Assembly (NCBI GenBank): GCA_903904875.1
Contig: CAIVEC010000025.1
Span: 1 to 63,513, forward strand
Direction: 5' to 3'
Length of the DNA: 63,513 bases
Source of the DNA: an uncultured bacterium
GTDB taxonomy: Bacteria; Patescibacteriota; Gracilibacteria; Absconditabacterales; Absconditicoccaceae
The notes under the pieces were generated by a model, which had not been told where the DNA came from, ran no database searches, and saw nothing but the letters and a program-made list of their open reading frames with translations. Made by a program: the position numbers and the translations under genes. Positions 42,095-62,244 of this stretch are shown one piece after another (position 1 is the stretch's first letter; each line of letters opens with the position of its first letter).

Positions 42095-42210
42095 ATAACA
42101 TCGACTGAAATACCAAAGACAGTAGGTTGCTTTTAGCATAAAACACCAATTCCTACCTAGGTTCACATACAAACACTATTTTTTGTATAAGAGCCTCGAA
42201 AGAGTCTTTT
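42095..42210 (+). promoter_or_regulatory. ribosomal protein L10 leader
   Basis: The segment AAAGACAGTAGG, a variable hairpin region and TTCCTACCTAGGTT match the L10(L12)4-binding leader found upstream of rplJ in many bacteria. A short hairpin, GAGCCTCGAAAGAGTC, with a T-run follows before rplJ and could act as an attenuator. Confidence 0.6.
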
Positions 42211-42237
42211 TTGATTTAAAATGTAAAAATTCTAGTC

Positions 42238-44769: not shown

Positions 44770-45570
44770 ATGTCAAATATCGAATTACTCAAACAATTGA
44801 GAGAGCTGACATTCGCTCCGATCAAGGATTGTAAGGAAGCTTTAGCTGAAGCAGGTGATGACCTAGAGAAAGCACAGGAAATACTCAAGAAGAAAGGTAT
44901 CGCGAAAGCAGGAAGCAGAGCAGAAAGGGAAACTAAAGAATGAATCGTCAAAATCGTGGAAATAAACGAAAAAACAGTCGGACTCAAACTCTTGTGTGAG
45001 ACAGATTTCGTAGCGAAAAACGAAAATTTTCAAGCATTGTTCGATTCCGTTCTCGATAAAATCGCTCAAGGTTCCAAGGAAATCACTGCATTAGAGGATC
45101 TTGATCCTGCAGTAGCGGAAACTGTTGAAAACGAAGTGAAGGAATTCATGGGAAAAACAGGCGAGAATATGAAAATCGGTGGTGTCCTGGTTACCAAAAA
45201 AAAGGCATATATTTATAACCATCCAGGAAACAAAGTCGCTTCACTTATTTTCTTCGAAGGAGGAAATGATGAGATAGCAAAAGAGCTTGCATTGCAGGTG
45301 ACTGCTATGAATCCAACTTTTGTCTCATTCGATCAGGTGGATGCAAACGAAACGGCTAAGATGAAAGAGGAATTCACCGCAGAGCTCAAAACTGCCGGCA
45401 AACCGGAAGCGATGATCGCTCAGATCGTTGATGGTAAAATCAAGAAAGCATTGGCTGATACTGTCCTTCTGGAACAAGAGTATATCAGAGATGGTGCAAA
45501 AAAAGTCAAAGACATATTGCCAGCTGATATGAAAGTCATCGCATTCGTCAGAATGGCTATCGGATCGTAA
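44770..45570 (+). CDS. tsf: elongation factor Ts
   Basis: 266 residues. EF-Ts exchanges GDP for GTP on EF-Tu. Motifs: [20 protein letters not shown] (N-terminal UBA region), [14 protein letters not shown] (the family signature, usually VNCETDFVARN), [15 protein letters not shown] and [14 protein letters not shown]. One TGA (44941) supplies glycine in KEGIVKIVEI. Normal length. Confidence 0.92.
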
Positions 45571-45596: not shown

Positions 45597-46163
45597 ATGC
45601 AAAAGTATGATGTAGTGTTGTTGGTTGACGCATCGTTGTCAGAGACTAACCGCAAAGAAGTGGTTTCTGAATTCGAGAAACTCATCAAAAAGGGTATCGT
45701 CGAACAGGATGATATGGGGCTCCAACAAATGGCGTACAATTTAGGCAATAAGGCTTGAAATGACAAGGCATATGTGTATTCATATTATATTCAGGCAGAA
45801 GCTGAAGATTTAGTTGTAATAAAAAAGAATTTGTTGTATAATAAAGCCATCAAGAGATATTTCATTTTCAAGATGGAGAAGACGGATGAATTTGTAACCT
45901 TTGCAAAAGTAAATGATGAACTCAAAACTATCATAGACACATGGGATCCTAAAAAGCTTTGACAGAAAGTGAACTTTTTTGCAGACAAGAAAAATGCAAA
46001 ATATATCAATCGAAAATCAGTAGCAATGCTCAAAAAATATATCACCAGATTCGGTGATATCAAGCCAAGAGAATATACTCATAATTCAGTATCAACTCAG
46101 AAGAAACTCAAGACAGCAATCCTTAGAGCCAGAGAACTCGGATTCGTAGCGTATAAAAAATAA
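45597..46163 (+). CDS. rpsF-rpsR: fused ribosomal proteins S6 and S18
   Basis: 188 residues in a single frame under table 25. The N-terminal 120 residues are S6 (MQKYDVVLLVDASLSETNRK, KKNLLYNKAIKRYFIFKMEK). The C-terminal 65 are S18 (NFFADKKNAKYINRKSVAML, ITRFGDIKPREYTHNSVSTQ, QKKLKTAILRARELGFVAY). The two parts join at a TGA (45960-45962), which would end S6 in a standard-code genome; S18 would then begin at the GTG at 45969. S6 and S18 form a heterodimer on the 30S platform, so a fusion is structurally plausible. Genes encoding them as one protein are unusual. Confidence 0.85.
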
Positions 46164-46273
46164 TAATTCTAAGTTTTAAGTGCTAAGTTTTAAATAAAAA
46201 GAATACCATAACTTAACACTTAACATTTAGCACTTAGCATAAGTTGAAATTTATACCTTAACAATATAAGAAA
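46164..46273. repeat. quasi-repeat intergenic element upstream of rpmH
   Basis: Left arm TTCTAAGTTTTAAGTGCTAA, short centre, and right arm ACTTAACACTTAACATTTAG, which is its approximate complement. The twin is at 54947, and half-elements are at 62142. Confidence 0.5.
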
Positions 46274-46429
46274 ATGGCTAGTAAATTAAGAAGGGTGAGA
46301 AAATATTCTCGAACCAAAAGAATAACTAAACATGGATTCAGGGAAAGGATGGAGACTGCATGATGAAGAGCATTGCTGAGCAGAAGAAGAAGAAAGGGAA
46401 GAAAACAATTAGCTGTTCAAAGACCGTAA
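46274..46429 (+). CDS. rpmH: 50S ribosomal protein L34
   Basis: 51 residues. The family core is KHGFRERMETAGGRALLSRRRRKGRKQL (GFRxRM...GGRxxLxxRRxKGRxxL). Both glycines of AGGR are TGA, so with the standard code the gene would be split and easily missed. Here it lies before rpoB rather than near the origin region. Confidence 0.92.
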
Positions 46430-54946: not shown

Positions 54947-55077
54947 ACCATAATGCTAAGTGTTAAATGCTAAGTGCTAAATATTGAAAAAATAAAATAC
55001 CAATACTTAAAACTTAGAACTTAAAATTTAGCATTCGAATGAAATGAAGTCGATCTTTAGTTCCTTTACCCTCCCAC
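54947..55077. repeat. quasi-repeat intergenic element upstream of nusB
   Basis: Left arm CTAAGTGTTAAATGCTAAGT, centre ATTGAAAAAATAAAATACC, right arm CTTAAAACTTAGAACTTAAA. Same plan as at 46164. Confidence 0.5.
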
Positions 55078-62141: not shown

Positions 62142-62244
62142 AACTAAAATGTTAAGTGTTAAATGTTAAGTGCTAAGTTCTAAGTGCTAAAATCTAAGTT
62201 TTAATTTTTGGATTCTGTATTCTGAATTTTGAATTCTGCATTCA
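62142..62244. repeat. slipped repeats between the two surface genes
   Basis: AAATGTTAAGTGCTAAGTTC and TAAGTGCTAAAATCTAAG, then TTCTGTATTCTGAATTTTGA, which resembles the element at 36114-36152. Confidence 0.45.

Follow-up and report, generated by a model that had tools for sequence, protein, structure and literature searches.

Introduction

Ribosomal proteins bS6 and bS18 are products of neighbouring genes, rpsF and rpsR, in Escherichia coli and Bacillus subtilis. The two proteins heterodimerize before binding the complex of rRNA and S15, and in E. coli the S6:S18 complex represses its own mRNA (PMC4647458).

A search of the open-licence PMC literature found no report of an S6-S18 or rpsF-rpsR fusion. 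To our knowledge, it is unusual for two core ribosomal proteins to be fused. A code in which UGA specifies glycine (NCBI table 25) was reportedly described by Campbell et al. in 2013 in SR1 and Gracilibacteria.

The locus described here lies in a 63,513-nt stretch of DNA from an uncultured bacterium of the Absconditicoccaceae (hereafter the window). As in E. coli and B. subtilis, bS6 and bS18 are encoded next to each other, and both domains score above their Pfam cut-offs; here, however, they form one chain, with neither ssb nor priB between the genes and no rpsF leader. Very probably, this is a natural bS6-bS18 fusion that went to fixation in a branch of the Absconditabacteria (candidate division SR1), where UGA was glycine beforehand, and that arose in several steps.

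Results

The fusion gene and its surroundings

The features of the locus are as follows (window coordinates, all on the forward strand).

44770 to 45570, forward: tsf (EF-Ts), the upstream neighbour, ending 26 bases before rpsF
45597 to 46163, forward: rpsF-rpsR fusion gene, code 25 frame of 188 codons plus a TAA stop, with orthologues in relatives
45597 to 45959, forward: S6 part, residues 1-121; PF01250 at 3-92, predicted helix at 102-115, tail ending in DTWDPKKL
45756 to 45758, forward: second in-frame TGA, Gly54, inside S6; relatives' codons TGA 11, GGA 8, GGT 3
45960 to 45962, forward: junction codon TGA, Gly122; TGA 11, GGA 7, GGT 9, GGG 1 in the 28 intact fusions of the main group
45963 to 46160, forward: S18 part, residues 123-188; Pfam PF01084 at 134-183
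45969 to 45971, forward: in-frame GTG, the sole possible start within 8 codons of the seam, three codons past it
46274 to 46429, forward: rpmH (L34), the downstream neighbour, with two adjoining in-frame TGA codons
46529 to 50320, forward: rpoB, with 14 in-frame TGA codons, which served as the tree marker

Read with code 25, the segment from 45597 to 46163 runs uninterrupted from ATG to TAA, and the translation around the seam is DTWDPKKL, then Gly122 (TGA), then QKVNFFADKK. The in-frame fusion with a UGA junction codon that had been predicted at these coordinates is thus borne out by a single frame with two Pfam domains: S6 (PF01250, E = 5e-10, 39.9 bits; cut-off 27) and S18 (PF01084, E = 7e-12, 45.7 bits; cut-off 21). 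Scores fall below the cut-offs of the NCBIfam models, namely TIGR00166, the stricter bS6 equivalog (35.5; cut-off 42.9), and, slightly, TIGR00165 for bS18 (38.6; cut-off 38.75). An AlphaFold model of the fusion has a mean pLDDT of 88.5 and a pTM of 0.83, and is weakest near the seam (pLDDT 70-76 at residues 111-130). The best Foldseek matches are S6 chains (E down to 5.5e-8), in keeping with the ferredoxin-like S6 fold; these matches cover the S6 half only, so that S6:S18 packing lies outside their reach. From the model, packing of the S6 and S18 domains against each other within the fused chain is plausible.

Since the gap between tsf and rpsF measures 26 bases, it has no room for an rpsF leader; an Rfam search of this gap gave no match, and a leader upstream of the fusion gene was rejected. 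An L10 leader (RF00557) was found by Rfam elsewhere in the window, at 42095-42221, above the gathering score. Repeats of the ACTTAAC/ACTTAGC type occur at 46174-46232, 54954-54974 and 62150-62177 (9 matches against 0.5 expected), and form a hairpin past the fusion gene (z = -3.0).

An ordinary glycine codon at the seam

None of the 49 genomes that make up our sample of the order contains RF2 above the prfB cut-off, and in the window's genome the release factor has a PAT motif of RF1 type. In-frame TGA codons (1-76) are present in the rpoB gene of every family member in which this gene could be read. A tRNA with anticodon UCA was found in G006, a genome of the same genus; its G1:C72, C2:G71 and G3:C70 pairs and its U73 fit the published criteria for a glycine tRNA (PMC8629427). 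No tRNA-Gly(UCA) was found in the window's own assembly, which is 87% complete and also lacks, for example, Ala and Tyr tRNAs. The locus shares with the table 25 code of SR1 and Gracilibacteria (PMC8629427) the use of TGA at conserved glycines and the absence of RF2, and the genus has a candidate tRNA-Gly(UCA). This code accounts for how the seam codon is read, but not for the fusion of the genes.

The earlier proposal that UGA is read as glycine is therefore upheld, by the lack of RF2 and by Gly122 in 28 of 28 fusions; a UGA acting as a functional stop here was rejected on these grounds and on the selection across the seam described below. A special status of the junction TGA was likewise discarded, as TGA occupies the seam in 11 of 28 sequences and Gly54 in 11 of 22, and makes up 25% of all glycine codons in the fusion gene. 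By these codon comparisons, the junction UGA is an ordinary glycine codon, one of several synonymous ones.

Other observations touch on the genetic code. Reassignment of CGA/CGG to Trp has been reported in Absconditabacteria (PMC8629427). In the fusion and its relatives, CGA occurs in columns otherwise occupied by TGG (residue 116, 5 CGA versus 13 TGG; residue 139, 11 versus 19), a codon pattern fitting the reported reassignment; Arg139 of the window is probably Trp in reality. The window's genome also has an odd 72-base tRNA-like gene (C17:5789-5860; L206 1090-1161), called as Leu(taa), with C33 and acceptor-stem mismatches. Three members of family f22 (L122, L125, L162) have 0, 4 and 46 in-frame TGA codons in rpoB, and code use within this family may differ or be in transition. 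A partial rpoB with 74 in-frame TGA codons in G059 (L164, family f12) falls on the tree amid families devoid of in-frame TGA; this may be a separate reassignment or a misplaced long branch. The G059 genome gave no match to S18.

The seam is conserved

The locus could be read in 47 of the 49 genomes; the remaining two yielded no match to S6-S18 and have their rpoB at the end of a contig. The readable loci comprise 30 single-frame fusions, 16 pairs of separate genes and one fusion gene (G047, L078) that is frameshifted just upstream of the seam, probably through an assembly error and possibly through a recent break. Within the main group, none of the 28 intact fusions lacks Gly122. Residues 113-131 have a pN/pS of 0.16 in a comparison of seven sequences from the window's genus, similar to the S6 part (0.18) and the S18 part (0.23). 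As far as sequence comparison can tell, these data show protein-level selection acting on the seam, and the invariant glycine and the low pN/pS argue that the fused frame is no chance product.

Gene order across the family

As seen on the rpoB trees, genera with ssb between rpsF and rpsR, genera with the two genes adjacent and genera with the genes fused form successive branches; the trees rest on one gene, and some of their early branches are weakly supported. The early-branching genera g16, g12, g3 and g13 have the order rpsF-ssb-rpsR, with ssb between the two genes in G002, G026, G027, G030 and G031. The same order is found in the nearest code 25 groups, that is, in f14 and in the members of f22 and f24 that have in-frame TGA codons. 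The original prediction had called for a survey of rpsF and rpsR in relatives, and had named TAA between the genes in the same layout as a finding against it. Such a survey found seven genera (g4, g8, g18, g5, g9, g2 and g14) in which nothing but a short spacer parts rpsR from an rpsF that ends in TAA or TAG; the spacer measures 37-62 nt in the nearest split genera. Most f1 genomes without ssb between rpsF and rpsR have ssb elsewhere, and thus the intervening copy that was lost was probably a spare.

The main fused branch (support 98-99) includes g17, g11, g21, g6, g19, g22, g20 and the window's genus, g1. Its earliest-branching genus, g17, has TGA at the seam. Genus g15 (G029) has a main-group seam, but lacks rpoB and is therefore off the tree; G004 is likewise unplaced. 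Fusions also occur outside the main fused branch, in genera g7 and g10, whose seams differ from that of the main group. A single monophyletic fusion was rejected, since the AU test against one clade of all fused genomes gave p = 2.5e-6. Given the different seams of g7 and g10, fusions have been gained more than once, or gained once and then undone.

Boundaries in the nearest split genera (g5, g9, g2, g14) coincide with the seam: in the numbering of the fusion, the last S6 residue falls at 121-124 and the first S18 residue at 120-122. This match indicates that two complete proteins were joined with practically no added linker. The idea that the UGA sits at the former rpsF stop thus stands as to place, the seam being the site where S6 stops and S18 starts; it fails as to codon, the stop of the nearest split genera being TAA or TAG.

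In-frame TGA codons in rpoB of all family members with a readable gene place the reassignment before both the loss of ssb and the fusion. With ssb following rpsF at the time when UGA was reassigned, reassignment was unable to join S6 to S18. Taken at the level of sequence, the comparative layout and the rpoB tree show a stepwise order. On this scheme, UGA would already have meant glycine in an ancestor with the rpsF-ssb-rpsR layout; loss of ssb would then have brought rpsF, still ending in TAA or TAG, up to rpsR with a short spacer between them; and loss of the spacer would finally have let full-length S6 run directly into full-length S18.

An independent fusion in family f39

Another family of Patescibacteria, f39 (L239, L251-L256), also encodes S6 and S18 in a single frame, in 5 of 6 genomes (about 200 aa); in a full-length example, both Pfam domains score above cut-off. 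While the order of S6 and then S18 is the same as in the Absconditabacteria, the f39 fusion differs in its longer, unrelated linker and in its standard code: the gene contains no TGA, TGA serves as stop in neighbouring ORFs, and RF2 is above cut-off in 5 of 6 genomes. By these sequence features the f39 fusion is of separate origin. Its presence on the standard code indicates that reassignment was not needed for fusing this pair.

Alternative explanations

According to the original prediction, rpsF may once have ended in UGA, and the change of this codon to glycine would have joined the two neighbours in one step. Of the 28 main-group fusions, 11 do have TGA at the seam, the earliest-branching g17 included, but ssb still separated the genes once UGA was glycine, split relatives carry TAA or TAG, and standard-code f39 is fused as well. 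In addition, among families of the class whose rpoB has no in-frame TGA, rpsF closes with TAA at 9 and with TAG at 3 of 12 loci, and with TGA at none. A one-step origin is thus hardly credible. A later role for the stop codon is unlikely, yet less so: after the loss of ssb and of most of the spacer, a change of the rpsF TAA to TGA, now glycine, would have completed the fusion. Such a change is a single transition, neutral in the standard code and a stop loss under code 25, and the end of S6 in the nearest split genera falls at the very same position. The likelihood reconstruction of the seam codon at the root of the main branch leans the same way, with TGA at 0.51-0.55, but GGA is close behind (0.33-0.35) and parsimony is tied at 9 steps each. 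Moreover, Gly54, which has no boundary history, looks alike, and its TGA posterior (0.61-0.66) is higher than that of the seam, so that the seam TGA is no distinctive relic. The 37-62 nt spacer would also have to be deleted, and one deletion could do all; the seams of g7, g10 and f39 lack TGA. We accordingly doubt, to a marginally greater degree, that the seam codon is a relic of a TAA-to-TGA stop loss, with reassignment easing the fusion without being its direct cause.

Other alternatives concern the product. That the whole chain is translated and then cut into S6 and S18 would accord with the low confidence of the model around the seam; the linkers of the independent fusions are unrelated, however, and the two proteins function as a heterodimer in any case (PMC4647458), and we regard cleavage as quite improbable. 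Still less probable is translation from an internal start at the seam, yielding free S18 as an additional or the main form of the protein. The window has the in-frame GTG at 45969, genus g20 has an ATG with an AAAGG-like stretch upstream, and g10 retains an ATG at the seam. Against this, no ATG, GTG or TTG lies 8 codons or less from the seam in 18 of the 28 main-group sequences, such codons being scattered in the others, and the position of the window's GTG is mostly GTA, GTT, GTC, CTC or ATT in relatives, so the start is not conserved. As to an artefact of assembly or frame, for which the frameshifted G047 gene might be invoked, its likelihood is negligible: independent assemblies of 30 genomes preserve the frame, among them the complete genome RAAC1_SR1_1 (CP006913.1).

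Discussion

The stepwise fusion that we favour most likely works, on our analysis, as a pre-tethered S6:S18 pair of fixed 1:1 stoichiometry. The product would enter the 30S platform as a covalent pair in that ratio, and the fused chain would replace the heterodimer that other bacteria form ahead of binding to the rRNA-S15 complex. Being one chain, it would make separate start, stop and leader signals unnecessary.

Annotation with table 11, and pipelines for marker genes, would cut the fusion gene twice and lose S18. The locus also provides a clean case against taking an in-frame UGA at a gene boundary for the fossil of a stop codon. The fusion is recurrent and apparently undescribed: the same ribosomal pair has been joined more than once in the reduced genomes of Patescibacteria, on two genetic codes, which suggests that an obligate S6:S18 pair can be hard-wired.
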